From Thermoplasmatota archaeon (GTDB lineage: Archaea; Thermoplasmatota; E2; DHVEG-1), in the NCBI GenBank assembly GCA_016927555.1, contig JAFGML010000017.1:1-39577 (forward strand): DNA of 39,577 nucleotides, in the 5' to 3' direction. Shown one piece after another: positions 11,360 through 27,780 of the stretch. The translations under genes and the position numbers were made by a program. Below the pieces are notes generated by a model. The model was not told where the DNA came from and made no database searches. It worked only from the letters and a program-made list of their open reading frames with translations. Positions within the stretch are counted from its first letter, which is position 1; every line of letters begins with the position of its first letter.

Positions 11360-13135
11360 ATGAAGAGGTATCCTTTGGTTGGAGGAAGTATTGTTATCGT
11401 GCTTGTGCTAGTTCTAGGTTCATTGACGAATGTTGTTGGGTTTCACACGGTTCAATCATCACAGCAGCACACTAAAAAAGAAGCAATCAACCAGAGAGAG
11501 TTGTTATTCCAGACCCTCGTTGATTTTGCGAACAACAAGGAGATACAACAGATCCTTCTCAAATCCCAGATTAGCAGAGGCCTCGTCCTTCCCTCAGAGA
11601 TTCCTGTGTTCATAAAGACTCAACTCAAACGGATGTATCTCCTTGGGTTGATCCTCTCAAAGTTCATGAGTACATCTCGGGTACAATCAATGGTTCAGAC
11701 TGATCAGGTGATGACACCTGACCTACAACAAGTGATAAATGCTGTTATTGAAAAGGACTCTGTGGTACAAGAGGACATAACGCGATTGGTCGCCTCGGGG
11801 TGTGGTTGTGACAAATCTGAATGGGGTTTTCCAATAATTTGCACTACATTATTAGTTATGATGGGGTTAGTGTTTATTCCTTGGTTGCTGCTAATGATAA
11901 TTTTTATGATACCACCAGGTGCTTTAGACGAGATGTTAGAACTTCTCTTCCTTTTTTTAAGTCCTCTTCTCCTCCTGTACCAGCGTTTTAATTGCCCTGT
12001 ACCACAAGAGAACAAGGGCCCGTGGTACTCTGATATTTCCCCTGCAGACGGTGAACAGAACGTGTCTCTCTCCCTCTCCGAGATTCGTTTTCGGATCTAC
12101 GATCCTGAGGGGGATCTCATGAGTTACAAGGTCACAACAAGTCCTGATATTGGCTCAGGGAGTGCAACGTTGGTACCAAATGGGACGTACGCTGTCCCTG
12201 TCCATGGATTGGAGAACCACACCACGTATTCGTGGCACTTCCGTTTGTACGCAGGGGATGATAGTGGAACACCACTGGGGAAGACATTCACCTTTACCAC
12301 ATCAAAGTTAGCTCCCTTCATCTGGAATCCATCACCACGACACACCGCTGACTATGTACCCATCTTTACGCCCAATGTGAGTTTTAATCTCAAGGATTTT
12401 CAGGGTGATCTGATGAATTGGACGGTTGAGACACACCCAGACATCGGAGGGGGTAGTGGTACGAATGTCAGCGATGGGCATTACTCTGTTGGTATTCATG
12501 GGCTTGACTACAACACCACGTACACCTGGTTTGTCAACGCGACCGATGGACTCCATTGGACGAGAAGAACCTATGCGTTTACCACGTCCCCTGAAGGGAT
12601 GTTTGCCGTAGAACCGTCTGATGACACATTTGTTGACCATGGGAATCCTGATACACCGAGGGGTTCTGGAGGACGTATGAATGTCAGAAACGAGTACGGC
12701 GCAACCCCAGGGTTTGCCTATGACCCTTTGATCCGCTTTGATGTCTCATCCATACCGAAGAACATCACGCTTCAGGACGCTTATCTCCGACTGTATTACT
12801 GTGAGTGGGATGATAACAATCCCTCAGGGAGACCCTTGCGTCTCTATCGAGCCACCAGCCCCTGGGAGGAAGAAACCGTCACCTGGAACACCCAACCCTC
12901 CTATGAAGATGTATGGACATCGTTTGCACTTGTTCCCGGGTCTGCCGGAACCTGGATTGAGTGGAATGTGACCAAAGATGTTCGAGCGTTCGTCAACGAG
13001 TCTCTCCTCAACTATGGGTGGAAAATCACGGATGAGACTCCATGGAATAACTACAATATTCCCATTGTGAAGCTGTACGCCAATGAATTCGGTGCGTTCA
13101 TTCCCCACCTCAGTATTGCGTATGAGACGAAATAG
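11360..13135 (+). CDS. Exported multidomain protein: Cys-rich membrane module, two Fn3-like repeats, DNRLRE domain
   Basis: This 591-residue surface protein has no assigned function. Residues 9-30 form a signal peptide or anchor. Residues 40-145 are predicted helical. A GCGC motif (C148, C150) precedes SEWGFPIIC and a strongly hydrophobic stretch (about 157-205) ending at RFNCP. Two fibronectin-like repeats follow, each containing DL-x-x-(Y/N)-(K/W)-x-x-T-x-PDIG-G-SG and (H/N)TTY-(S/T)-W, about residues 218-318 and 320-415. From about 420 a DNRLRE-type domain (DDTFVDHGNPDTP, WEEETVTWNTQP) runs to the end; that domain is known from secreted carbohydrate-associated proteins. Many N-x-S/T sites would allow N-glycosylation. 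The Cys-rich membrane module recurs without the extracellular domains in the gene at 14355. Likely a membrane-anchored cell-surface binding protein. Confidence 0.8.
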   Translation: MKRYPLVGGSIVIVLVLVLGSLTNVVGFHTVQSSQQHTKKEAINQRELLFQTLVDFANNKEIQQILLKSQISRGLVLPSEIPVFIKTQLKRMYLLGLILSKFMSTSRVQSMVQTDQVMTPDLQQVINAVIEKDSVVQEDITRLVASGCGCDKSEWGFPIICTTLLVMMGLVFIPWLLLMIIFMIPPGALDEMLELLFLFLSPLLLLYQRFNCPVPQENKGPWYSDISPADGEQNVSLSLSEIRFRIYDPEGDLMSYKVTTSPDIGSGSATLVPNGTYAVPVHGLENHTTYSWHFRLYAGDDSGTPLGKTFTFTTSKLAPFIWNPSPRHTADYVPIFTPNVSFNLKDFQGDLMNWTVETHPDIGGGSGTNVSDGHYSVGIHGLDYNTTYTWFVNATDGLHWTRRTYAFTTSPEGMFAVEPSDDTFVDHGNPDTPRGSGGRMNVRNEYGATPGFAYDPLIRFDVSSIPKNITLQDAYLRLYYCEWDDNNPSGRPLRLYRATSPWEEETVTWNTQPSYEDVWTSFALVPGSAGTWIEWNVTKDVRAFVNESLLNYGWKITDETPWNNYNIPIVKLYANEFGAFIPHLSIAYETK

Positions 13136-13162
13136 ATGTCTGCGATGCGAGTAGTAGTTGAC

Positions 13163-13176
13163 AAATATATAATATA
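13163..13176 (+). promoter_or_regulatory. Probable TATA box upstream of the first beta-helix gene
   Basis: AAATATATAATATA ends 40 bases before the GTG start at 13216. It would begin a transcript covering the beta-helix gene and probably the same-strand genes behind it, which have short gaps. Confidence 0.5.
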
Positions 13177-13197
13177 GAGAGAGGGCCATTAGAAAAA

Positions 13198-13262
13198 AAT
13201 GGAGGAGGTTGAACTGTGCACAACCCAGGGAGTATGAGGAAAGCCGTTGTCATTGGAATCAT
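13198..13262 (+). repeat. Start-and-leader repeat, copy 1
   Basis: The segment holding the ribosome binding site, the GTG start and the first 15 or so codons of the beta-helix gene is closely similar to 16010-16074, in front of the PQQ-propeller gene. Both read TGGA-(G/A)-GAGG-(T/C)-TGAACT-GTG-CACAAC, then a GGAG-(T/C)-ATGAGG block and a conserved hydrophobic leader. The proteins behind the two copies are unrelated in fold, so the similarity is confined to the leader. Confidence 0.75.
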
Positions 13263-14349
13263 GCTCTTGTTCGTTGGAATTTACATTCTTCCAGCGACAG
13301 CACATTCAGTAGAGAGATCTCAGTTAACATCACGTGGGAAGTGGTTATATGTTGGTGGGAGTGGACCTGGGAATTATAGTACGATTCAGGATGCGATTGA
13401 TGATGCGAATGATGGAGAGGGCATCTTTGTGTATGATGACTCCTCCCCCTACCTGGAGAATGTCCATATAAATAAACAGCTCATGGTAATTGGTGAACAT
13501 CGCAATACAACTGTTCTTGTCAGTCAGAATACCAGTGATGCAGTGAATATCACGTGCTCAAGCGTTGTGTTTACAGGATTCACGCTTCAAGCCGAAGAAG
13601 GAAGTATCAATCACGTGACCTTAAATCAGGATAATATTGTCATTACTGATAATGTTTTGATTAATATTTCTATAGCCTCATCATCTTCTGAGGGTATCGT
13701 ACTATCAAGCAATACGTTCCTTCATAACAAATGGTTTCACGGAAGACTCATTCAGATTGGTGAAGGGAAGAATTGCATCATCCAAGGAAATTTCGTAGCA
13801 AGATGTAATTCTGCGATAAAACTCGTGAATTGCAAAAGTTGCATCGTACGCGGTAACACGATTCATAACTGTTTCTCAGGCATCGCAATATCGGATGGCC
13901 ATTCCAATGTCATCGTAAATAATCGTCTAGATACTTGTGGTGATGGGATATTTCTCATGGGCGGGAGAGCCCAGGTGGAGAATAACACTATCTTTGAGTC
14001 TAATAATGCGATTAGACTATACCATGTCCGCTTCGCCTATCTCTCTACAAATATTCTTACGAACTGTTTGTGTGGTATCCACATGGACCATGCTCTTTTT
14101 TGTCGTATTACATCAAATGATTTTGGACAGAATTCTATCAACACCTTTGTTATGAATTCCTTATTCAATACATGGAAACAGAATTTTTGGGGTCGGCCAC
14201 GGTTGCTGCCAAAACTTGTTATAACCTTCTTTTACAAAGAAGTCCCTGGATCCTGGTTTGGAGCTCTCATAGTGCCCTGGCTGAACGTTGATTTCAGGCC
14301 AGCAGTAAAACCAAATTGTGCGCCTATGTGCGACGGAGAGGACCGGTGA
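13216..14349 (+). CDS. Exported right-handed parallel beta-helix protein (NosD/PbH1-like)
   Basis: This 377-residue exported protein starts at GTG 13216 behind GGAGGAGG; the ATG at 13234 is a second option. A signal peptide ends near residue 30 (AHSVERS). The entry motif WLYVGGSGPGNYSTIQDA followed by IDDANDGEG is the classic cap of archaeal surface beta-helix proteins. Repeats then alternate short strands with Asn-rich turns (such as GNTIHNC, NNRLDTCGDGIF, ENNTIFESNNAIRL), the PbH1 pattern. The C-terminal end FWGRPRLLPKLV with later D-x-x-PA-x-x-P resembles the tail of the second beta-helix gene at 18044. Such folds bind or cleave polysaccharides or serve as surface adhesins; I see no catalytic motif that would choose. 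The usual GDTIFVY is GEGIFVYDDSSPY here, so the first turn is slightly modified. Confidence 0.8.
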   Translation: MHNPGSMRKAVVIGIMLLFVGIYILPATAHSVERSQLTSRGKWLYVGGSGPGNYSTIQDAIDDANDGEGIFVYDDSSPYLENVHINKQLMVIGEHRNTTVLVSQNTSDAVNITCSSVVFTGFTLQAEEGSINHVTLNQDNIVITDNVLINISIASSSSEGIVLSSNTFLHNKWFHGRLIQIGEGKNCIIQGNFVARCNSAIKLVNCKSCIVRGNTIHNCFSGIAISDGHSNVIVNNRLDTCGDGIFLMGGRAQVENNTIFESNNAIRLYHVRFAYLSTNILTNCLCGIHMDHALFCRITSNDFGQNSINTFVMNSLFNTWKQNFWGRPRLLPKLVITFFYKEVPGSWFGALIVPWLNVDFRPAVKPNCAPMCDGEDR

Positions 14350-14354
14350 GAAAT

Positions 14355-15044
14355 ATGAGTATGAAAAAAGTACATACAAGTCTTAGCATTGCTGTCATTT
14401 TCTTGTTTGTTGGTGTCGCCGTCGCACCATCTCTTCCTGCAACTGTGGACGAACCCTTGAGTGAGGCACCGGTTGACCCTACCTTGAAAGCATCCTTCGC
14501 TCGTTTGATCCAAGCAGTGCCGCCACGAGAAGAAGTGGAGACCTTCAAAGACAATCCTACCTATCTTCGAAATATCCAGAAGCGTCTGCTTTCTGTCTTT
14601 GAGAACGAGCCAACACTGCTAAGCTTTCTTATAACTCCACATCATGATGAGTGCGGATGCGATGGTGAGAGTGGAACGGTTGAATGGACGTTTCCCCTCA
14701 CGTGTCTGCTGTTACTCCCTGTCTTTCTCCCCATCTTATACATTTGGATCGGAACACACGGGTACTATGGGAGCCTCCTCATGCAGTGGATCAACATGGT
14801 GGGAAAACCACTGCACTGCTTCTGGTTTGTCGGCTTGCTGTACGATTATCCACCGATGGTCTGCCTGTCGTTAGATTACATCTTTCTTGGGGTGATGCTG
14901 CTCTGGGAGCTGACGATTGGTAACTTGAATCTTCTCGTGGATTTTCTCTTTCCTAATCTGAATATCAACATTTACCTTGGGTGGCATCTCATTGAGATGA
15001 TTCTGGCTCTTGGGCTGAAAATGAACTGTCCCATGTTCACCTGA
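14355..15044 (+). CDS. Exported membrane protein with Cys-rich module (uncharacterised)
   Basis: This is a 229-residue protein of unknown function. The start at 14355 is chosen because GGTGAG precedes it and because a longer frame from 14316 would overlap the beta-helix gene. ATG 14361 is also possible. It has a signal peptide (FLFVGVAVAPSLP), then a helical, charged segment. Next come the motif ECGCDGES and VEWTFPLTC, and several hydrophobic stretches to the end, finishing MNCPMFT. The order C-x-C, (S/V)-E-W-x-FP, hydrophobic run, NCP is the same as in residues 148-213 of the protein at 11360. Here the chain stops at NCP, whereas the other continues into extracellular domains. The leader VAVAPS is shared with the paralogues at 15093, 18910 and 19877. 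Confidence 0.75.
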   Translation: MSMKKVHTSLSIAVIFLFVGVAVAPSLPATVDEPLSEAPVDPTLKASFARLIQAVPPREEVETFKDNPTYLRNIQKRLLSVFENEPTLLSFLITPHHDECGCDGESGTVEWTFPLTCLLLLPVFLPILYIWIGTHGYYGSLLMQWINMVGKPLHCFWFVGLLYDYPPMVCLSLDYIFLGVMLLWELTIGNLNLLVDFLFPNLNINIYLGWHLIEMILALGLKMNCPMFT

Positions 15045-15092
15045 GCTACATCATGAAGTGAAGAGAACAGCAGATACAAAGAGGAAAGAAGA

Positions 15093-15812
15093 ATGAAACG
15101 AGCAGCGGTTGCGATCATCATCCTCTTCATAGGAGGCATGGTCGCACCAAGCATTACTCATAGTGGTGCCACGGCATCCGATGACCGGGGATCTGTTGAG
15201 ATTACGGTGACGGCGTATGGCATCAGAGGCATAGGCGATACCTCCGTGCACCTCTCGCATCAGCAGTACCAGGGCCTCCAGCAGTATCTTGGTCAGTTCA
15301 GAGAACGGTTGAATCAGACGACGACGAGGCAGGAAGCTGTTCCTGTCTTCAAGGAAGCGGTGGTTGAACTGAACGAGTATGGGTTGTTGCCAAAGGAAAT
15401 GAGTGTTGCACAGGCGCAACGTCTGGTCACGGGACAGACCCTTCCAACGGCACTTGCTACTCAGCTTCTTGAAAGAACACCAGTGGCCTTTGGTGAGAAT
15501 GAGAACGTAGTGTGTTTGCTTGCCGGGTCGTTGACTGGTACGATGCCACATAACCCGCTGGACATGATGATGAACCGGGTGTTCTGGGTGCTCGCATCCG
15601 TCTACCTGCATCATCCGAAGCCCCTGGTGGAGCATGTCCTGAACATCGCATTCCTTGGGTACATGGGCTCCTTTTTCCTGTCAGCGCTGTTGTTTTATGG
15701 GATACCCGTGCATCTGTTTCTCACCATCGGCGTGGGGTACACTGCGTTTGCCGCGTATATTCCATCGTATGGGCAATTGATCACTGTGGGTCTGAATGGT
15801 GTGAAACACTGA
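15093..15812 (+). CDS. Truncated member of a three-paralogue exported protein family (in-frame TGA)
   Basis: The open part encodes 239 residues. After a signal peptide (LFIGGMVAPS) comes a conserved helical domain. It contains VEITVTAYGIRGIGDTS, a QQYQGLQQYL stretch, RLNQTTTRQEAVPVFKEAVV, and EYGLLPKEMSVAQAQRLVT. A hydrophobic middle with NVVCLLAGSLTGT follows. The same domain opens the proteins at 18910 and 19877. Those are 302 and 307 residues long, while this frame meets TGA at codon 240 (15810-15812) and then continues open to 15999. Counting the TGA, codon number reaches 302, equal to the intact paralogue. GAGGAAAG before the ATG is a good ribosome binding site. A 239-residue product may still be made, but it would lack the conserved C-terminus. 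Function is unknown. Confidence 0.75.
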   Translation: MKRAAVAIIILFIGGMVAPSITHSGATASDDRGSVEITVTAYGIRGIGDTSVHLSHQQYQGLQQYLGQFRERLNQTTTRQEAVPVFKEAVVELNEYGLLPKEMSVAQAQRLVTGQTLPTALATQLLERTPVAFGENENVVCLLAGSLTGTMPHNPLDMMMNRVFWVLASVYLHHPKPLVEHVLNIAFLGYMGSFFLSALLFYGIPVHLFLTIGVGYTAFAAYIPSYGQLITVGLNGVKH

Positions 15813-16001
15813 TCTGGTAGCATGGGTGGGACACTGCCGTTCCTCCATCGGGTACCGTACCCTGCGGAGGACACCCCTGGTATCTTTGGGTTCACTGGCC
15901 TGGCGTGGTACAATGTGTTTCAGGATGATGAACTGTTCTACTTGGGGTCTGCACTCTGGGTGAGCATCACCCTAACACCTTATGTACTCCAGACAGAATA
16001 A
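15813..16001 (+). pseudogene. Detached C-terminal part of the 15093 gene, beyond an in-frame stop
   Basis: Read in the same frame as the gene before it, this stretch gives a clean 62-codon continuation ending in TAA at 15999-16001. It contains PGIFGFTGLAWYNVF and FYLGSALWVSI. These match PGVFGFSGVKI and FYLGSALWVKI at the end of the 18910 paralogue. No frameshift is needed, so one base change explains the interruption. It has no evident ribosome binding site of its own. Confidence 0.8.
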
Positions 16002-16009
16002 TGGAAAAG

Positions 16010-16074
16010 AATGGAAGAGGCTGAACTGTGCACAACGCATGGAGCATGAGGACTGTTGTCGTCGTTGGAATAAT
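16010..16074 (+). repeat. Start-and-leader repeat, copy 2
   Basis: Second copy of the segment at 13198-13262. It carries the ribosome binding site (GGAAGAGG), GTG start and signal-peptide codons of the PQQ-propeller gene. I see no TATA box between it and the preceding pseudogene, so the gene probably relies on upstream transcription. Confidence 0.75.
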
Positions 16075-17923
16075 GTTACTGTTCTTTGAGTCTTGTGTCA
16101 TGCCTCCGGGTGGTGGCAGCTGTCACCAGGAAGTTGAAGCTTCCTCCATCCAGATGGACTCATCATCTCCTCTGTTGCGTTCTGAGTGGTGGCCGATGTT
16201 CCACCATGATCTTGGTCACACTGGGTACTCGAGTTCTGTAGCACCAGCGACAAATACCACGCTGTGGACGTATGCAACCACGGGTCAAATAGGCTCATCG
16301 CCAGCGGTCAGTGACGGGTACGTGTTCGTCGGCTGCATGGACCAGAACGTGTACTGTGTGAACGGTGCTACAGGGGAACTACGCTGGCAGTACGACACGG
16401 GTCACTACGTGTCGTCCTCCCCCGCAATATATGAGAATATGGTGTACGTTGGTTCCAATGACCTCCCTGGGTCCAATGGCAGTAAACTGTACTGTCTGAA
16501 CGCCTCGTCTGGGGCGAAGCTCTGGGAGTACACGACTGGTGATGGGAGTATGTACGGGGTGTACTCCTCCCCTGCGGTGGCTGAGGGTCGGGTGTACGTC
16601 GGCTCCGGTGACCACAAGGTGTACTGCTGTGATGCGTACACCGGAGGAAAACTCTGGGAGTACTCCACGGGGTACGAGGTGGCCTCGTCTCCCGCGGTCG
16701 TCAACAACAGTGTGTACATTGGGTCTCTGAATGGCGTCGTGTACTGTCTCAATGCAACGACCGGTGCAGAGCGTTGGATCTACCCTACGCAGGGTCAGAT
16801 TCGATCGTCTCCTACTGTTGTGAACGGCAGGGTGTACATTGGGTCTAGCAGGATGTTCTGTTTGGATGCAGACACCGGGGTGGTTCTCTGGGATCGACTC
16901 CCTGAGTTTCTGTACTCCTCACCAGCGGTTGGGTACGACCGGGTGTTCTGCGGCTCCACCTCTCAGCTGTACTGTTTGAATGCGACGACTGGCTGGCTGC
17001 TGTGGCAGTCCAGTCTGGGTGCTGGTGACACCTGGGTCTGGTCGTCTCCTGCGGTTGCTGATGAGAAGGTGTACGTTGGTGGGCGCGATGGGTACATCTA
17101 CTGTTTTGATGTCTGGACTGGTGACACCCTGTGGACGTATCCGACTGGGGTGCTCTACTTCCCCGTGTTTTCGTCTCCAGCGGTGGCCAATGGCCGCATC
17201 TACGTTGGTGACAGTGCAGGAACCCTGATTTGTTTTGGTGAGCCGAACCACCAGCCGCTCACACCAGCTGTCATTGGCCCACAGCAGGGGCTCTCCACTG
17301 TAGAGTACACGTTTTCTACTGATGCCGTCATGGATCCTGACGGCGATGATGTCTACGGTCTGTGGGACTGGGGTGATGGTACGTGGAGTGGCTGGCTTGG
17401 TCCGTACTCCTCTGGTCAGGTGGTCAGTGCGTCTCACAGCTGGGCGTCAGCCGCAAGCTATGAGGTACGTGTGAAACTCAGAGACCCGTACGATGTGGAG
17501 AGCAACTGGTCTGCACCACACCTCATCACCATCGCTGAGAATACACCACCATGTACTCCAGATATTACGGGGCCAAAATATGGGAAACCTGGGGTTCTGT
17601 ACCTCTACACCGTTGTTGCTACCGATGCACAGCAGGATGATGTGTTCTACTACGTGGAGTGGGGGGATGGGGTGAATAGTAATTGGTTGGGGCCGTATGC
17701 CTCCGGTGTGCCAGTCTCTACATCCTATCGTTGGGGTCAGAAAGGAACGTATGTTATCCAGGTAAAAGCAAAGGATACCTGGGGGGCGGAGAGCGACTGG
17801 GGAACACTCAGAGTGATCATGCCAACATCAAGTCAGGTACCATTCCAGCACGTCTGGATGAGACTAGGGCAACGATTCCCTAACCTCTTTCCGTTACTTC
17901 GATTCTTCGTGGAGTCCACCTAA
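16028..17923 (+). CDS. Exported PQQ-type beta-propeller with two PKD-like domains
   Basis: This 631-residue exported protein starts at GTG 16028 in the duplicated leader. After the signal sequence, W-x-MFHHDLGHTGY opens a propeller of eight repeats (residues about 50-405). Each repeat has SSPAV, a (V/I)-(Y/F)-(V/I/C)-G strand, YC-(L/V/F)-(N/D) and TG-x-x-LW, the PQQ/BamB-like blade pattern. Two PKD-like domains follow (about 410-500 and 505-605), marked by WDWGDGTWSGWLGPY and VEWGDGVNSNWLGPY. The chain ends in a basic-hydrophobic tail, RLGQRFPNLFPLLRFF, which I have the impression recurs at the ends of exported proteins in related archaea. No residues for PQQ-dependent dehydrogenase chemistry are evident, so it is probably a surface binding or scaffold protein. 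Confidence 0.85.
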   Translation: MHNAWSMRTVVVVGIMLLFFESCVMPPGGGSCHQEVEASSIQMDSSSPLLRSEWWPMFHHDLGHTGYSSSVAPATNTTLWTYATTGQIGSSPAVSDGYVFVGCMDQNVYCVNGATGELRWQYDTGHYVSSSPAIYENMVYVGSNDLPGSNGSKLYCLNASSGAKLWEYTTGDGSMYGVYSSPAVAEGRVYVGSGDHKVYCCDAYTGGKLWEYSTGYEVASSPAVVNNSVYIGSLNGVVYCLNATTGAERWIYPTQGQIRSSPTVVNGRVYIGSSRMFCLDADTGVVLWDRLPEFLYSSPAVGYDRVFCGSTSQLYCLNATTGWLLWQSSLGAGDTWVWSSPAVADEKVYVGGRDGYIYCFDVWTGDTLWTYPTGVLYFPVFSSPAVANGRIYVGDSAGTLICFGEPNHQPLTPAVIGPQQGLSTVEYTFSTDAVMDPDGDDVYGLWDWGDGTWSGWLGPYSSGQVVSASHSWASAASYEVRVKLRDPYDVESNWSAPHLITIAENTPPCTPDITGPKYGKPGVLYLYTVVATDAQQDDVFYYVEWGDGVNSNWLGPYASGVPVSTSYRWGQKGTYVIQVKAKDTWGAESDWGTLRVIMPTSSQVPFQHVWMRLGQRFPNLFPLLRFFVEST

Positions 17924-17995
17924 GTGTTACTCAGTGGTGGTCCTCTTCCTCTGGATTCATCTCACTTCTCCAAGTACTACGTTCATCGTGACAAA

Positions 17996-18006
17996 GATTT
18001 AAATAG
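17996..18006 (+). promoter_or_regulatory. Probable TATA box for the AT-rich beta-helix gene
   Basis: GATTTAAATAG lies about 38 bases before the ATG at 18044. The expected transcript start then sits just before the leader AGGGGCGGAAAGGT. Almost the same leader precedes the ATG at 11360, which suggests shared regulation or common origin. Confidence 0.55.
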
Positions 18007-18043
18007 ACAAGAATCCTTTATTTTTGGTTAGGGGCGGAAAGGT

Positions 18044-18895
18044 ATGGATAAATATCCTCTATTGAGGAAAGGATTATCGATTTTCATTATTCTCTTGTTC
18101 TTTTCAACTTCGATTTTTCCATCTTGTGCACAAAAGATGGAGAAACAGTCGTCAGCACCAACAAGAGGGAATTGGTTGTATGTTGGTGGGAGTGGACCGG
18201 GGAATTATACGAAGATTCAGGATGCAATTGATAATGCAAATGATGGAGATATAATATTTGTATATCAAGGAATTTATAATGGCAGTATTACCATTAGTAA
18301 GTCAATTACTCTCTTAGGGGAAGCAAGAGATCAGACTATAATAAATGGAGTAGGCTCTTGGAAAATTTGTTCTATTTATGCAAATGATGTTACAATAAAA
18401 TATTTTACTATTAAAAATGGTTCTTATGGTATATGGTTGTTTAGAGTAGATGATACGAAGATTAGTAATAATCTAATTATTAAAACTGGATGTGGAATTT
18501 GGGTACAAGATTACTGCTTTAGAACAAAAATTTACTTTAATTCAATAGCTTATGCATCCATGGGCATAAAATCTGATCGTTCGAAACGCTCATACATATT
18601 TTATAATAATTTTTATAATAATACTTGTAATATTCAAATTAATTTTTTAACTTATTACTCTACAGAAAAACAATGTAGTGTGATACAGAATAATAATTTC
18701 TATTCCAGTATTACTCAAGCTACATTCGATACTTCAATTAATATTTGGATTAGGAACTACTGGGAAGACCATAGATTCGGTCCAAAAATAATTAAAGGAA
18801 ATTTCTTAACTCCTTTTCCATATCCTCGTGGTAGTAAACGAGTCGCTTATCAGATAGATTTGTTTCCTGCCAAAGAACCCTTCGTTATTCCCTGA
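18044..18895 (+). CDS. Exported right-handed parallel beta-helix protein, AT-rich
   Basis: This 283-residue exported protein has a signal peptide (FIILLFFSTSIFPSCA) and the beta-helix entry motif WLYVGGSGPGNYTKIQDA followed by IDNANDGDIIFVYQG, a complete version of the one at 13216. About eight short PbH1-like turns follow (KNGSYGIWLF, ISNNLIIKTGCGIWV, YNNFYNNTCNIQI). The tail is RNYWEDHRFGPKII with a later D-x-FPAKEPF, similar to the end of the other beta-helix protein. The gene is markedly richer in A and T than its neighbours, with many ATA and AAT codons, although the first 70 or so codons match the 13216 gene at DNA level. Different base composition after a conserved start suggests acquisition or exchange of the repeat region. 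Its target is unknown. Confidence 0.8.
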   Translation: MDKYPLLRKGLSIFIILLFFSTSIFPSCAQKMEKQSSAPTRGNWLYVGGSGPGNYTKIQDAIDNANDGDIIFVYQGIYNGSITISKSITLLGEARDQTIINGVGSWKICSIYANDVTIKYFTIKNGSYGIWLFRVDDTKISNNLIIKTGCGIWVQDYCFRTKIYFNSIAYASMGIKSDRSKRSYIFYNNFYNNTCNIQINFLTYYSTEKQCSVIQNNNFYSSITQATFDTSINIWIRNYWEDHRFGPKIIKGNFLTPFPYPRGSKRVAYQIDLFPAKEPFVIP

Positions 18896-18909
18896 GTGAG
18901 CTGTTGAAG

Positions 18910-19818
18910 ATGAAGCAAATACTCGTATTAAGTATTTTATTTCTTTTCATCGGTGTCGCAGTCGCACCAAGCATCAACGTCAGTGTTGTGAAGGCAATAG
19001 TTGAGAATGAGTTTATTGAGGTTACGTCTGAGGCCTGTGGCATCAAAGGATACGGGAACACGACTGTGAAATTAACCAGACAACAATACCATGATCTGGA
19101 GCAATATCTAGTTGATTTCAGAGCACGACTGAATACCACGACAACTAGAGAGGAAGCGGTTCCTCTCTTCAAAGAAGCAGTTGTGGAGTTGGACGAGTAT
19201 GGGTTGCTGCCGAAGGGGATAAGTGTGAAACAAGCACAAAAACTCGTAACTTGTTCTTCGCATGATTCTCATTTTCTAATACTGCTGAAAAGATTTTTTT
19301 CCTCCCATCAACCTCTTAACACCAAGATATCTAACATAGTCTGCTTGATTGCTGGACAGACAGATCGTACCTGCTTTCGAGGAATTCCATCAAATCTTTT
19401 ATATGAGCTTTCATGGAATGTCAAAGCCAGAACCCTATCAATACTACTGTTCTTAATTAGTATGTATTTAGATGTGTGGAGGTCCGTTACTCCATTCTGT
19501 TGTGGGAACAGAGTTTATCTTGGTTACTCTACTACAGATGAGATGTTGATGGCCTACGGATGGATGGCAACCATAGGTGCACAGGGATTCCAAAAAACAC
19601 AAGGAGGCATGACCGAGATGATAGGGGCTCTTCCGATAAAACCGTATTACTATTCATATGGCCCATTTCCATCGTGGGAATTCCAACCTGGAGTCTTCGG
19701 TTTTAGTGGGGTAAAAATAAGTATTATCACTACTCCTTTTTCTGTGTTAAACGATTGTTTTTACCTTGGCTCGGCGCTTTGGGTAAAAATAGATTCCGAG
19801 CCTCCCGAGTTATCATAA
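18910..19818 (+). CDS. Exported protein, intact member of the three-paralogue family
   Basis: This is a 302-residue protein of unknown function. TTG 18904 and ATG 18910 are both possible starts; the ATG gives the leader MKQILVLSILFLFIGVAVAPS that aligns with its paralogues. The N-terminal domain has EVTSEACGIKGYGNTTVKL, QQYHDLEQYLVDFRARLN, TTTTREEAVPLFKEAVV and EYGLLPKGISVKQAQKLV. The middle is variable and partly hydrophobic (NIVCLIAGQTDRT, SILLFLISMYLDVW). The C-terminal part is beta-like, with GVFGFSGVKI and FYLGSALWVKI. It starts 14 bases after the beta-helix gene and is followed by another paralogue, so these are tandem duplicates. The conserved ends and variable middle suggest a common export and assembly frame presenting a variable segment. 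Confidence 0.8.
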   Translation: MKQILVLSILFLFIGVAVAPSINVSVVKAIVENEFIEVTSEACGIKGYGNTTVKLTRQQYHDLEQYLVDFRARLNTTTTREEAVPLFKEAVVELDEYGLLPKGISVKQAQKLVTCSSHDSHFLILLKRFFSSHQPLNTKISNIVCLIAGQTDRTCFRGIPSNLLYELSWNVKARTLSILLFLISMYLDVWRSVTPFCCGNRVYLGYSTTDEMLMAYGWMATIGAQGFQKTQGGMTEMIGALPIKPYYYSYGPFPSWEFQPGVFGFSGVKISIITTPFSVLNDCFYLGSALWVKIDSEPPELS

Positions 19819-19876
19819 TTATAAAACAACAGAACCATTTGAAAAGAGAACGTATGAAATTACAGAGGGAAATACA

Positions 19877-20800
19877 ATGAGTATGATGAAGAAAAGTATG
19901 GCAGTTGCCGTCATTCTCTTATTCCTTGGTGTCACCGTCGCACCAAGTATTAACTTTAACGTCGTAAAAGCAGACAGTGACGATGATCTCATTGAGGTTA
20001 CGTCTGAGGCCTGTGGTATTCAAGGTTTACTACCAAAAACCGTAAAACTCACGCGGCAGGAATATCAGAACCTAGAGCAGTATCTTGTTGAGCTCAGGGC
20101 ACGACTGAATACTACGACAAGCAGGGAGGAAGCTGTATCAATCTTCAACGAAGCAGTGATGGAGTTGGAAACGTATGGGTTGTTACCACAAGGCTTGAGT
20201 GTTGAACAAGCACAGGCACTCGTAATAGCACGATATCACCCCACGTACACCAACGCTCGTACGACCATACGAAACAGTGCTCTCACCGTGTTCAACACTT
20301 CAAATTACTTCTGCTTAATCACTGCTGAGACGTCGAACACACGCATCATCAGCATCCCTGAGATGAGCTGCGCAACCCTCCTATATGGTCTCATCGGAGT
20401 CTACATCATCACGAATTTTTTAATAAAAGACCCACTCATCCTCAGCACACTCATCACCCATCTCCGTGCAACCTGTACAGGTTTTCAGAACAGAACCTCA
20501 AACCGTCTCATCAGAGCCGGAGGCGTGATCTTTGGAACGAGCCGTGATGCGTACCTCCCACCAGAATTCCGATACCACCCAGCAGGCGGCTGGGTAGAGA
20601 CACAAGGCTTAATTGGTAAAAAATCATGGAACGGCACCTTTTTCGGAGGCGTACGTCACCTCCCAAATTTTGAGCAGTCCTCCTCAACCTCCTACATCGG
20701 GGCATCAGGCTTCAGCGGACTTTCCTTGAAACAAAGCGGAGGAACACACTACCTGCTAGGATCCGCAGTACACGTCAGCCTAGACTATTTTGAATTCTAA
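19877..20800 (+). CDS. Exported protein, second intact member of the three-paralogue family
   Basis: This 307-residue protein has the same plan as the gene before it. The leader is VILLFLGVTVAPSINF, followed by EVTSEACGIQGLLPKTVKL, QEYQNLEQYLVELRARLN, TTTSREEAVSIFNEAVM and TYGLLPQGLSVEQAQALV. The middle keeps the NYFCLITAETSNT motif, where the others have NIVCLIAG or NVVCLLAG, and a hydrophobic segment. Its C-terminal part differs more (SYIGASGFSGLSL, YLLGSAVHVSL) but keeps the FSG and LGSA landmarks. GAGGGA precedes the ATG. The second half of the gene is richer in C and uses different codons from the AT-rich genes nearby, which suggests the segment has a separate history. Function is unknown. 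Confidence 0.8.
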   Translation: MSMMKKSMAVAVILLFLGVTVAPSINFNVVKADSDDDLIEVTSEACGIQGLLPKTVKLTRQEYQNLEQYLVELRARLNTTTSREEAVSIFNEAVMELETYGLLPQGLSVEQAQALVIARYHPTYTNARTTIRNSALTVFNTSNYFCLITAETSNTRIISIPEMSCATLLYGLIGVYIITNFLIKDPLILSTLITHLRATCTGFQNRTSNRLIRAGGVIFGTSRDAYLPPEFRYHPAGGWVETQGLIGKKSWNGTFFGGVRHLPNFEQSSSTSYIGASGFSGLSLKQSGGTHYLLGSAVHVSLDYFEF

Positions 20801-23868: not shown

Positions 23869-24219
23869 ATGACACCTCAAGACAATCCCTACAGAAAAAG
23901 AAATCATTCCCAAGATGGTGAGGAAGGGTACTATCGGTTACCCTTGCCGAACCGAAAGAACAACGAGCTCTTTGCCATTGCAGACCAACTGCTTGGCGGA
24001 TCACGTATCCATGTGATCTGTGAGGATAAAAAATCACGCATGGCACGCATCCCTGGGAAGATGAAACGGAGAGCACGGGTCCGTGCCGGTGATCTGCTCA
24101 TCATCAAACCATGGGACATCCAAAATGAGAAAGCAGATATTGTTTTTCGCTACAGCAGGACTCAGGCGAGCAGCCTGAGCAGACGAAAAATGCTCCCAGA
24201 GGAAATTAATGTCTTCTGA
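23869..24219 (+). CDS. Translation initiation factor aIF1A
   Basis: This 116-residue S1/OB-fold factor binds the ribosomal A site during initiation. The family core is clear: RLPLPNRKNNELFAIADQLLGG, then RIHVICEDKKSRMARIPGKM and the RRARVRAGDLLIIKPW strand. N- and C-terminal tails are short and basic or polar, as usual. Length is normal for archaea. The gene overlaps the RIO1 kinase gene by 11 bases and begins three bases after the HD-domain gene, so it sits inside an operon. Confidence 0.95.
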   Translation: MTPQDNPYRKRNHSQDGEEGYYRLPLPNRKNNELFAIADQLLGGSRIHVICEDKKSRMARIPGKMKRRARVRAGDLLIIKPWDIQNEKADIVFRYSRTQASSLSRRKMLPEEINVF

Positions 24220-24985
24220 TGAACTCCTGACGGACAAGTGGCTGAAAAAACTCGATCGACAATCCCAAGAGATACTTGACCGGGTCGTGTTTGACCGGGG
24301 GACGTTTGGGGAGGTCTTCGATAGACAGACGATTCTACGGCTCGGTAAACTGATTTCTGATAAAATCATTGATCAGATGGATTTCCCGCTCTCCACGGGA
24401 AAAGAAGCAAACCTCTTCCGCGCAACTACCCCGGAACACGAGTTTGTCGCCATGAAAATCTACCGTACCTCAACTATGACCTTCAAACATATCGCCACCT
24501 ACATCGACGGCGACCCACGGTTTAAATCCGGGATGAAAAACAGGCGGGATATCATCGAGGAGTGGGCGAAAAAAGAATTTAAAAACCTGGAGGTCTTACG
24601 TCGCAGTAAGGTGCGTGTCCCTGCTCCGATAAAACGACTTCATAACATCCTTATCATGGAGTACATTGGTGATGCCAACCAGGCAGCACCGTTGTTAAAA
24701 GACGTCCCGCTGAAACATCCACAGAAAATCTATGATGAACTCATGAGCTTCATTGCTCGGATGTACGCCGCACAGATTGTGCATGCAGACCTCAGTCCTT
24801 ACAACATCCTGATGTTTCAACACAAACCCTACATCATCGATGTCGGTCAGGCTGTCCACCTTGATCATCCTTCCTCTCAGGAGTTCCTCAAGCGAGATAT
24901 CCACAACATCGTTCAGTACTTCACACGATATGATATCAGAGGCGATGAGCAACACCTGTATGAGAAACTGACGACGAAGAAGTGA
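24209..24985 (+). CDS. rio1: RIO1 serine/threonine protein kinase
   Basis: This 258-residue atypical kinase acts in maturation of the small ribosomal subunit. An N-terminal region leads to the RIO nucleotide loop STGKEANLFRA, then the lysine strand VAMKIYRTSTMTFKHI, which is diagnostic of RIO1 rather than RIO2. The catalytic loop is IVHADLSPYNILMF and the metal-binding loop is YIIDVGQAVHLDHP. RIO1 lacks the winged-helix domain that RIO2 has, and none is seen here. GAGGA before the ATG supports the start. The gene overlaps aIF1A and precedes the KH protein by six bases. This aIF1A-RIO1-KH order groups ribosome initiation and assembly functions. Confidence 0.95.
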   Translation: MSSDELLTDKWLKKLDRQSQEILDRVVFDRGTFGEVFDRQTILRLGKLISDKIIDQMDFPLSTGKEANLFRATTPEHEFVAMKIYRTSTMTFKHIATYIDGDPRFKSGMKNRRDIIEEWAKKEFKNLEVLRRSKVRVPAPIKRLHNILIMEYIGDANQAAPLLKDVPLKHPQKIYDELMSFIARMYAAQIVHADLSPYNILMFQHKPYIIDVGQAVHLDHPSSQEFLKRDIHNIVQYFTRYDIRGDEQHLYEKLTTKK

Positions 24986-24991
24986 GACACC

Positions 24992-25537
24992 ATGAAATAC
25001 GTACGAATCCCAAAAGAACGCATTGGTGTCGTCATCGGCAAAGATGGAGAAACCAAGAAAGCAATTGAGAAGTTCTCTCGTATCCCTCTTGAGATTGATT
25101 CTGAGGAAGGCGAAGTGGTGTTCAATGAGCTTGAGGCACAAGATCCACTCATGCCGTTGAAACTAGAGGATATTATCCGTGCGATCGGCCGCGGGTTTTC
25201 ACCGGAGCACGCGTTTCGCTTGTTTGGAGAAGAAACAGAGCTCTTCATTTTTGATATCTATGACTATGTCTCGAAAAAAGAGTCTCATCTCACTCGGGTG
25301 AAAAGTCGTGTGATCGGCCGAGAGGGGAAAACAAAACGGGTCATTGAGAGTCTCACGGGGGGAACCATCGCGGTGTACGGTCATACCGTGGCTGTGATTG
25401 CGGATTTTGACTCTATGGACATCGCGAAGAAAGCCATTGATATGCTGCTGAGCGGTAGTGAGCATCCGACGGTGTACCGGTTTTTAGAACGTGAGATGAA
25501 GAAACTCCATCTCGGTAGACGACTCCACGACCTCTAA
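24992..25537 (+). CDS. KH-domain RNA-processing protein (archaeal Pno1/Dim2-like)
   Basis: This 181-residue protein has two KH domains. The first carries GVVIGKDGETKKAIE near residues 12-26 and the second carries SRVIGREGKTKRVIESLTG. Both contain the GxxG loop (GKDG, GREG). Eukaryotic Pno1/Dim2 acts with RIO kinases in late 40S maturation, and the archaeal protein binds 16S rRNA 3' end regions. Its position right after RIO1 agrees with that. The C-terminal tail EREMKKLHLGRRL is typical of this group. No feature is missing. Confidence 0.93.
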   Translation: MKYVRIPKERIGVVIGKDGETKKAIEKFSRIPLEIDSEEGEVVFNELEAQDPLMPLKLEDIIRAIGRGFSPEHAFRLFGEETELFIFDIYDYVSKKESHLTRVKSRVIGREGKTKRVIESLTGGTIAVYGHTVAVIADFDSMDIAKKAIDMLLSGSEHPTVYRFLEREMKKLHLGRRLHDL

Positions 25538-25570: not shown

Positions 25571-25581
25571 ACTTTTTAATG
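25571..25581 (+). promoter_or_regulatory. Possible TATA box for the MCM-like ATPase gene
   Basis: ACTTTTTAATG lies about 41 bases before the ATG at 25622, in an 84-base gap after the KH gene. It is a modest match to an archaeal TATA element. It would explain why the longer open frame from 25589 should not be used. Confidence 0.4.
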
Positions 25582-25621
25582 CTTCTACGTGGATATAACC
25601 TGCTCGCGCTGGAGTAGCCCT

Positions 25622-26953
25622 ATGGATGATGATCTAACATTACTGGGTGTTGTCCCCTCTGATCGGAAGAAATTGGAGAACATGGGGATTACCACTCTTG
25701 AGCAAATCGCACTCATGTCTGTGTCTTCGTTAGGCATGGGGGCGACGAAAGGCACCATGTTGATTCAACGGGCCAGGAATATTTTAGCGAATCAAAACAT
25801 ACGGGATATTGTCATTGTGAATGCGGACCTCATCGAAGTACGTGCGAAGAGGACAGATCGCGCAGTGGTGAAATCGATTTTAAACGCTTTAGATGTGTAT
25901 GCTGTTGGCTGGGGGAACGCTGCGTTGTCCATCGAGGGGAACCTCCTGAAACTCACGCGGAAATCAGAAGCGTTCTCAAAGGTGATAGCCAAAGCCGAGG
26001 GTCTCCGTGAGATCCTGGAAGCTAAAAGAAGAGAGGAGCAAGAGAAAAGCGGGATTTACCTCCCCGAGGATGACCTACGGGAATTTGCCAGGCAACGCGG
26101 TTTTTCAGGATTCTGGAAGAACGTCTTCCAGGAGATACATGGAAACGACATCATGAAGCAGGTGATTGCTGCCAGCATGTTTTCCACCTACCCGGAGCCA
26201 GTGCACTCGTTGATCATCGGTGAGCCAGGTAGCAGCAAGACCATGGCGAAAGAAATCATCACTGAGCAGTTCTCTGATATCACGACGATTGGTGCGAATA
26301 CCACGCGATCTGGGTTGGTCTGCCATCTCGGTACTGGGGATCTTGGCGCACTCCCCCATGCACACCGTCGGCTCGTCTTGGTCGATGAGTTTGATAAAAT
26401 CCCGGAAGATGACGTCGAATACTGCTACGAGCTGCTGTCCAATGGTAAGTGCAGTGTGCATTCCGCAAAACTGCATCAGAACATTGAAAGTGAGTTCATC
26501 ATGATTGCATTTGCCAATCCAAAAACAAAGGTGTTTGGGCAGGATGCGCTCAACGACATTGGCCTCTCTCCGCTGCTGATGAGCCGCTGTGCCTTGGTGG
26601 TTAAAGTACAGAACATAGGGAAAGAAGACCGGTTGAACTTGTTTAAAAAGAAGTTCTACGGCCACGGGGAGATGCAGGAGAAGCAAGCGTACTACGACCA
26701 GTGGGTGAAGCTTTCACGACGCTATGAACCTACGATAACAGCATCTGAGAACACCGTGCATCGGTACCTCAGTGCGATGAATGAAATAGTAGAAACCCAT
26801 TACACTACAACACTCCGACGGGATCTCCGTATGTCCGATTATCTCCGAAGGATCCCACTTGCGATTGCACGAGCGTCCTTTCAATCGGTGGATGATGCAA
26901 TCCTGCAGGAAGCGGAAACCTTAATACACGACTCTATTGCAACCTGGATGTGA
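25622..26953 (+). CDS. MCM-like AAA+ ATPase with N-terminal helix-hairpin-helix-like region
   Basis: This 443-residue ATPase is related to the MCM helicase core but short. Residues 1-60 resemble helix-hairpin-helix repeats (SDRKKLENMGITTLEQIA, like the start of RadA). No MCM zinc/OB domain is seen in residues 60-160. The ATPase core has Walker A GEPGSSKT (residues 200-207), Walker B LVLVDEFDKI (D255, E256), a sensor-1-like MIAFANPKT, and an arginine-finger-like LLMSRCALVV. GEPGSSKT and DEFDKI are the MCM/Mg-chelatase forms of these motifs. A C-terminal helical lid follows (about 350-443). The normal archaeal MCM is about 650-700 residues and must be encoded elsewhere. The gene follows the KH protein and precedes nadE closely. 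A DNA or RNA remodelling role is likely; partners are unknown. Confidence 0.8.
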   Translation: MDDDLTLLGVVPSDRKKLENMGITTLEQIALMSVSSLGMGATKGTMLIQRARNILANQNIRDIVIVNADLIEVRAKRTDRAVVKSILNALDVYAVGWGNAALSIEGNLLKLTRKSEAFSKVIAKAEGLREILEAKRREEQEKSGIYLPEDDLREFARQRGFSGFWKNVFQEIHGNDIMKQVIAASMFSTYPEPVHSLIIGEPGSSKTMAKEIITEQFSDITTIGANTTRSGLVCHLGTGDLGALPHAHRRLVLVDEFDKIPEDDVEYCYELLSNGKCSVHSAKLHQNIESEFIMIAFANPKTKVFGQDALNDIGLSPLLMSRCALVVKVQNIGKEDRLNLFKKKFYGHGEMQEKQAYYDQWVKLSRRYEPTITASENTVHRYLSAMNEIVETHYTTTLRRDLRMSDYLRRIPLAIARASFQSVDDAILQEAETLIHDSIATWM

Positions 26954-27027: not shown

Positions 27028-27780
27028 GTGCAGAGCGCAGGGTACAGGAAAGTGGTCCTTGGACTGTCTGGTGGTGTGGACTCAGCGGTTGTCGCCGTCC
27101 TCTGCCAACAGGCTCTCGGCTCACAGAACGTGCAGTGCGTGTTTCTCCCTGATACCACGACACCATCGCTTGATAGAAAACACGTTACTGTGTTGATAAA
27201 GAAGTTTCATCTCCGCTGCAGAGAAATCGAGATTACCCCGCTTGTCGAGACGTTTCAAACCTCTATGAATCATCTGAAGAAACTGACGCTTGCTAACATA
27301 AAACCCCGTGTCCGCATGATCTATCTCTACGAGTATGCCAATGAGACGAGAAGCCTGGTCTGTGGTACGTCGAATAAATCAGAAATCCTGGTTGGGTACT
27401 TCACGAAGTACGGGGATGGTGGGGTGGACTTCCAGCCGCTCGGTGATCTCTACAAAACGCAGGTGTACCAGCTCGCGACGTACCTCAAGGTTCCCCGCCC
27501 GCTCATTCGGAAACCACCAACGGCAGGACTGTGGCAAGGCCAAACCGATGAGAAAGAACTGCGCATGTCGTATGCGACCCTTGACAAAATTCTCTACGGT
27601 TTAGAGCTGAAACTGGAGACCAAGGAGATCCAACGACGGGCAGGTGTCACGAAGGCTCAGGTCGAACGTATCAGACTGATGCGGAAGACAAGTCAGCATA
27701 AACGACGCAGCCCGCTCATCCCTAAGATAGGGATTAGAACACCGGGTCTTGACTGGCGCTCTCCTGTGCAAGAAGGTTGA
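27028..27780 (+). CDS. nadE: NAD+ synthetase (ammonia-dependent NadE)
   Basis: This enzyme amidates deamido-NAD to NAD+. The ATP pyrophosphatase loop LGLSGGVDSAVVAVL, the GTSNKSEILVGYFTKYGDGG segment and the PLGDLYKTQVYQLA stretch are all present and diagnostic. From GTG 27028 the chain is 250 residues. Sequence resembling the NadE N-terminal helix (ITQFIHTYVQSAGY) is encoded upstream of that GTG in the same frame, back to a TGA at 26956-26958. No ATG, GTG or TTG lies between. The best ribosome binding site, GAGGTGA at 26952-26958, points to an ATC codon at 26965. Either ATC is used or a shortened protein is made. No glutaminase domain is attached. The gene follows the MCM-like gene directly and converges with purC. 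Confidence 0.92.
   Translation: MQSAGYRKVVLGLSGGVDSAVVAVLCQQALGSQNVQCVFLPDTTTPSLDRKHVTVLIKKFHLRCREIEITPLVETFQTSMNHLKKLTLANIKPRVRMIYLYEYANETRSLVCGTSNKSEILVGYFTKYGDGGVDFQPLGDLYKTQVYQLATYLKVPRPLIRKPPTAGLWQGQTDEKELRMSYATLDKILYGLELKLETKEIQRRAGVTKAQVERIRLMRKTSQHKRRSPLIPKIGIRTPGLDWRSPVQEG

Follow-up and report, generated by a model that had tools for sequence, protein, structure and literature searches.

The window analysed here, a 39,577-nt stretch of DNA from a Thermoplasmatota archaeon, carries a gene for a short MCM-type ATPase with a helix-hairpin-helix (HhH) N-terminus, here called HhH-MCM. The gene follows an eIF1A-RIO1-KH run and precedes NadE; a first-pass annotation of this DNA had placed it after RIO1-KH, and the placement is borne out by Pfam and by related loci. 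The genes of this segment are as follows.

23869–24219, + strand: eIF1A (Pfam)
24209–24985, + strand: RIO1 kinase (Pfam)
24992–25537, + strand: KH protein, Pno1/Krr1-like (Pfam)
25622–26953, + strand: HhH-MCM ATPase gene, 443 aa plus stop (ORF, Pfam and family alignment)
27028–27780, + strand: NAD synthase NadE (Pfam)

The ATG start at 25622 and the stop codon ending at 26953 define a product of 443 aa. An alternative GTG start at 25589 gives a 454-aa reading; the ATG is preferred because the family alignment begins at M[ED]DDL, and a GGAG read directly from the sequence lies ∼10 nt upstream of it. A TTTTTAAT box, likewise read directly, is present upstream of the gene at 25573–25580 and suggests that HhH-MCM may have its own promoter. 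Thirty-five homologues align with the protein across its whole length, at identities of 47–84%. The domains and motifs of the product are listed below.

25631–25798, + strand: predicted RadA/Rad51-type five-helix HhH domain, aa 4–59 (AF2, Foldseek, shuffle test and alignment)
25799–26050, + strand: predicted bba-bba alpha/beta domain, aa 60–143 (AF2)
26084–26623, + strand: MCM-type AAA+ core, aa 155–334 (PF00493, E = 2.1e-13; profile-profile comparison)
26219–26242, + strand: Walker A, GEPGSSKT, aa 200–207 (sequence and alignment)
26312–26353, + strand: shortened helix-2 insert, GLVCHLGTGDLGAL, aa 231–244 (8 residues between anchors, no aromatic residue)
26381–26398, + strand: Walker B, VDEFDK, aa 254–259 (sequence and alignment)
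26447–26509, + strand: presensor-1 beta hairpin, aa 276–296 (MCM-like spacing; tip HSAK[LIV]H conserved)
26513–26521, + strand: sensor 1, ANP, aa 298–300 (alignment)
26582–26587, + strand: arginine finger, SR, aa 321–322 (alignment, invariant)
26813–26872, + strand: sensor-2/lid signature, LRRDLRMSDYLRRIPLAIAR, aa 398–417 (nearly invariant; aligns to the MCM lid)

The Pfam match of the protein to PF00493 scores 50.4 bits against a gathering score of 23.3, and a PDB search with the family profile returns MCM as the best match (E = 1.4e-15). Profile-profile comparison with canonical Thermoplasmatota MCMs (E = 4e-14) aligns aa 161–439 with MCM residues 285–613 of 706 and nothing else; the NCBIfam model minichrom_main_MCM scores 28 bits against a cut-off of 940, below equivalence. 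Walker A, Walker B, sensor-1, arginine finger and sensor-2 are intact, being invariant or nearly so in the alignment of 36 homologues, in agreement with the first-pass annotation, which had called the Walker motifs and the finger MCM-like. The Walker A variants (GEPGSSKT, and GDPASSKT in locus L058) and the Walker B variants (VDEFDK and VDELDK) fit the MCM-type patterns GDPxxxKS and [IV]DE[FLIM]DK. The same annotation had taken the short product to lack an MCM N-terminal domain, and this holds, as Pfam gives no N-terminal match and the profile-profile match to MCM is confined to the residues given above. The C-terminal winged helix is absent as well, the protein ending after the lid in both the alignment and the profile-profile comparison.

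A check for the two MCM insertions, proposed in the first-pass annotation, gave a divided answer: the presensor-1 hairpin is kept, whereas the helix-2 insert is cut to 8 residues, compared with 17–18 in MCM. The distance from Walker A to Walker B is accordingly 46 residues versus 56–57 in canonical MCMs, with the shortfall located in this insert, while the spacing from Walker B to sensor-1, which takes in the presensor-1 hairpin, is preserved at 38 residues versus 37 in MCM. The hairpin tip carries HSAK[LIV]H in place of the MCM KAG pattern, and its conserved basic residue is shifted by ∼2 positions relative to the MCM lysine. A full-length AF2 run, with an alignment made of the window sequence and the sequences of related loci only, yields a poor model of the AAA+ part (mean pLDDT 56), and for this reason the ring geometry considered below rests on homology.

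The AF2 model of aa 1–148 is confident (pLDDT 87.7, pTM 0.79) and consists of five helices up to residue 59, followed by a bba-bba arrangement up to residue 143. Foldseek matches the helical part to RadA/Rad51 N-terminal domains with a probability of about 0.99–1.0, at 1.4–1.8 Å over 51–55 residues and with 27–28% identity; the corresponding E-values are weak, about 0.02–0.3, because the domain is short. Compared with the RadA encoded in the same window, the HhH domain reaches a score of 46, whereas shuffled sequences average 22 and 0/2000 of them attain 46. The family alignment shows a conserved LGMGxSKG hairpin and a basic RxR, and Pfam gives a sub-threshold HhH match only (0.012) in this region. 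The model and its fold matches confirm the HhH-like start proposed in the first-pass annotation as a predicted HhH of the RadA/Rad51 N-terminal type. For the bba-bba domain there is no Pfam match, and the Foldseek matches are weak and none of them convincing; a faint fold likeness to TM1457 and to PTS IIB domains was seen.

A survey of 390 Thermoplasmatota genomes finds full-length orthologues in the family of the window, in a sister family of its order, and in three other families of its class, one of these by way of a single genus; named records include Thermoplasmatota MAGs such as SM1-50 and UBA33. One orthologue lies outside the class (G008, 49% identity), after which the next matches are ordinary MCMs at 1e-13 or weaker. 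A tree of the AAA+ region was built with MoxR and LonB from the same genome as outgroup, chosen because no Mg-chelatase was found in 20 relatives. In this tree the HhH-MCM family is monophyletic (100/100) and falls with MCM as opposed to MoxR/LonB (98/99), and the concern raised at the outset that the protein might fall outside the MCM clade is thereby answered; its exact place inside MCM is not fixed, because the stem of the clade is extremely long and reaches the limit of the tree program. Another divergent MCM group (L097, L098 and L099; ∼640 aa, Walker A GDPGTVKS), also on a long stem, occurs in several genomes of the same family.

MCM_OB detects a canonical MCM in 71/80 genomes of the class and in every near-complete one (25/25), indicating that HhH-MCM is an additional paralogue and that replication is otherwise covered; replacement of the canonical MCM is ruled out for the class on the same count. 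The 1.47-Mb, 85%-complete assembly to which the window belongs (G000) contains no canonical MCM by PF00493 or MCM_OB, probably owing to an assembly gap. Within the class HhH-MCM is patchy and is missing from some nearly complete genomes. Mapped on the canonical-MCM tree, which here stands in for the species tree, its presence calls for ∼12 changes versus 20 for shuffled labels. The pattern reads as that of an old gene lost several times, with some of the absences being gaps in incomplete assemblies. Pairwise omega is 0.02–0.06, and identities between genomes run parallel to those of MCM in the same genome pairs: HhH-MCM is under strong purifying selection and evolves about as slowly as MCM.

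The first-pass annotation had set the gene in a translation/ribosome cluster and had proposed that conservation of the Pno1 and NadE neighbours be examined. The arrangement with eIF1A-RIO1-KH upstream and NadE downstream is kept across the genus and in several further genera of its family, and NadE is again found downstream in a distant family (L062), but the neighbours change elsewhere. HflX lies beside the gene in L049, L050 and L064 and close by in L065 and L066; RNase P Pop5 is beside or near it in L068, a PrmA/METTL5-like methyltransferase in L063 and L069–L071, and ArgS in L057, with TBP in another context (ArgS and TBP were read from the sequences) and unknown proteins among the neighbours in others. 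Over nine independent contexts, translation genes make up ∼4/18 of the immediate neighbours, which by estimate is not clearly above the background for such genomes. Because the neighbours vary by lineage and the share of translation genes is near background, the location is weak evidence for function, and the functional weight first placed on it is not sustained. A role within a ribosome operon was rejected as the main reading, the context not being conserved across the class. That the protein is a ribosome- or RNA-linked remodelling ATPase, an MCM-type motor recruited to small-subunit assembly or rRNA processing, is unlikely: such a role is favored by the RIO1-KH pair that immediately precedes the gene in its own genus and in some others, and by the RNA-related genes beside or near it elsewhere, but no RNA gene accompanies it throughout, its N-terminal domain belongs to the DNA-binding RadA/Rad51 type, and the TTTTTAAT box just upstream suggests a separate promoter.

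Several other features of these neighbourhoods were recorded. In one family (L063:7181–8994, L069 and L071) genes for an archaemetzincin and the PrmA/METTL5-like methyltransferase overlap end-to-end directly behind the HhH-MCM gene in an apparent operon, with a radical SAM protein next in line in L063. A compact reverse gyrase of 1043 aa lies two genes from HhH-MCM in one genus of the class (L057:363–3491 and L060). Within the window itself, positions 11360–20800 hold a run of apparently secreted or membrane-anchored, repeat-rich proteins with similar signal peptides, several of which share an EVTSEACGI/VKLTRQ segment, and the run looks like a paralogous array. No recombination gene adjoins HhH-MCM in any lineage seen, the RadA of the window being 9 kb away. 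A link to Topo VI was considered and rejected, as Top6B is present in 76/80 genomes regardless of HhH-MCM and does not lie beside KH/RIO1 in the ten loci read. Co-occurrence with RadB or RuvB gave no signal either, RadB being near-universal and RuvB_N having no match in the 80 genomes of the class, and no other co-occurrence partner was found.

A role at the replication fork, as an accessory helicase or as a motor-only paralogue that regulates the canonical MCM by co-assembling with it or loading it, also appears improbable. The AAA+ module is closest to MCM, and the protein coexists with canonical MCM and evolves at a similar rate, as such a role would predict; however, it is without the N-terminal domain that organises MCM rings, most of its helix-2 insert is gone, no adjoining GINS, PCNA or primase genes were seen, and many genomes replicate without it.

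A protein or metallocluster remodelling ATPase in the style of MoxR or Mg-chelatase, as opposed to a nucleic-acid motor, would accommodate a weak Mg_chelatase match in Pfam (2.4e-4) and three invariant presensor-1 tip residues (H280, S281 and H285) that are unusual for a DNA pore loop. This is nonetheless a decidedly poor prospect, since MCM fits far better (2e-13 versus 2e-4), MoxR does not appear in the Pfam scan, the tree groups the family with MCM against MoxR/LonB, a RadA-type HhH domain is present, and no VWA partner gene was recognised adjoining HhH-MCM.

It is highly improbable that HhH-MCM is a decayed MCM, or one belonging to a mobile element, with no function in the cell. Archaeal mobile elements often carry MCM genes and its presence is patchy, but no full-length relative was found in plasmid or phage records and none is encoded by viral contigs, the PADLOC match is weak and that in PHROGs is to the generic viral DNA helicase and spans the AAA+ part, the omega values are low and the catalytic motifs conserved, the gene tree follows the families, and the chromosomal context is stable in close relatives.

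The reading preferred here, to which we assign a probability of about 0.5 by analogy with ComM, is that HhH-MCM is a DNA-translocating ring of recombination or repair. The hexamer, DNA binding, translocation and cellular role that we infer would fit together as follows. MCM-type AAA+ subunits would form a ring, probably hexameric; the RadA-type HhH domain would grip DNA, probably duplex or branched; the presensor-1 hairpins would drive the DNA through the pore with ATP; and the trimmed helix-2 insert would favor translocation on duplex or branched DNA rather than fork unwinding, with branch migration or the clearing of recombination intermediates as the possible outcome, as in ComM. MCM cannot unwind DNA without its presensor-1 lysine, and its helicase activity requires the helix-2 insert, for which clamping of one strand has been proposed (PMC4359371); because this insert is trimmed, HhH-MCM most likely translocates along DNA and does not unwind a fork. 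Counting against a DNA translocase are the displaced basic residue at the presensor-1 tip, the lack of recombination neighbours and of a co-occurrence partner, the patchy presence and the poor AF2 model of the AAA+ part. HhH domains, moreover, are able to bind RNA or protein too. A more specific version, in which the MCM core and the RadA DNA-binding tip make up a dedicated archaeal branch-migration motor doing a RuvB- or ComM-like job in a lineage without detectable RuvB, is tentative and itself rather doubtful. The broader proposal of the first-pass annotation, a new nucleic-acid remodelling ATPase, is plausible for this putative enzyme.

There is as yet no agreement on the motor that moves Holliday junctions in archaea. 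Outside replication, MCM-type motors are represented mainly by the eukaryotic MCM8/9 and the bacterial ComM, and an archaeal MCM paralogue that evolves slowly and bears a recombinase-type DNA-binding tip would, if the proposal is true, link these cases and represent a replicative motor re-purposed by a swap of its N-terminal tier. Even under a different role, HhH-MCM represents a family of conserved, uncharacterised ATPases to which automatic annotation would simply give the label "MCM". In the titles, abstracts and passages of the open-licence literature, no description was found of an MCM-type protein with an HhH N-terminus, nor of this protein as a truncated MCM paralogue, which the first-pass annotation had allowed that it might be; arCOG tables or genome annotations may already list the family under an MCM label. 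Multiple archaeal MCM homologues are already known, and judged against that portion of the literature the new part is the short MCM motor with a RadA-type HhH N-terminus.

Compared with the MCM helicase (PF00493; Sulfolobus MCM, 3f9v/6mii), the protein has in common the AAA+ core and lid (aa 161–439), an IDEFDKM-type Walker B, the presensor-1 hairpin and the SR finger. It differs in having neither the A/Zn/OB N-terminal domain nor the C-terminal winged helix, in a helix-2 insert ∼10 residues shorter, in forming its own long-stemmed clade, and in carrying the predicted RadA-type HhH and bba-bba domains at its N-terminus. The extra archaeal MCM homologues described in the available text of earlier reports are either complete MCMs or MCMs truncated at the C-terminus (PMC3984812, PMC3972481). 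RadA/Rad51 corresponds in the five-helix HhH fold of the first ∼60 residues only, its core being of the RecA type, whereas that of HhH-MCM is AAA+/MCM by Pfam. MCM8/9, as presented in the available text on them, are likewise MCM-type helicases that act in recombination and exist in addition to the replicative one (PMC10400076), but they are several hundred residues longer and match HhH-MCM over the AAA+ part only. ComM is a bacterial MCM-type branch-migration motor that encircles duplex DNA; its presensor-1 loop is very similar to that of MCM, its helix-2 insert is "much shorter" and without an aromatic residue, and its accessory domain makes extra DNA contacts (PMC11612176). ComM further carries a Lon-like domain at its N-terminus, a zinc finger, and an Mg-chelatase domain at its C-terminus. 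No counterpart of these was detected in HhH-MCM, where the Pfam scan gives no Lon-like match and the N-terminus is HhH instead. As judged from its published description (PMC11612176) and not from aligned sequences, ComM resembles HhH-MCM in its MCM-type AAA+ module, its presensor-1 loop, its short helix-2 insert without an aromatic residue and its accessory N-terminal domain. This ComM-like combination, with a RadA-type HhH in the accessory position and no RuvB_N match in the class, points to a recombination or repair translocase as the most likely identity of HhH-MCM.
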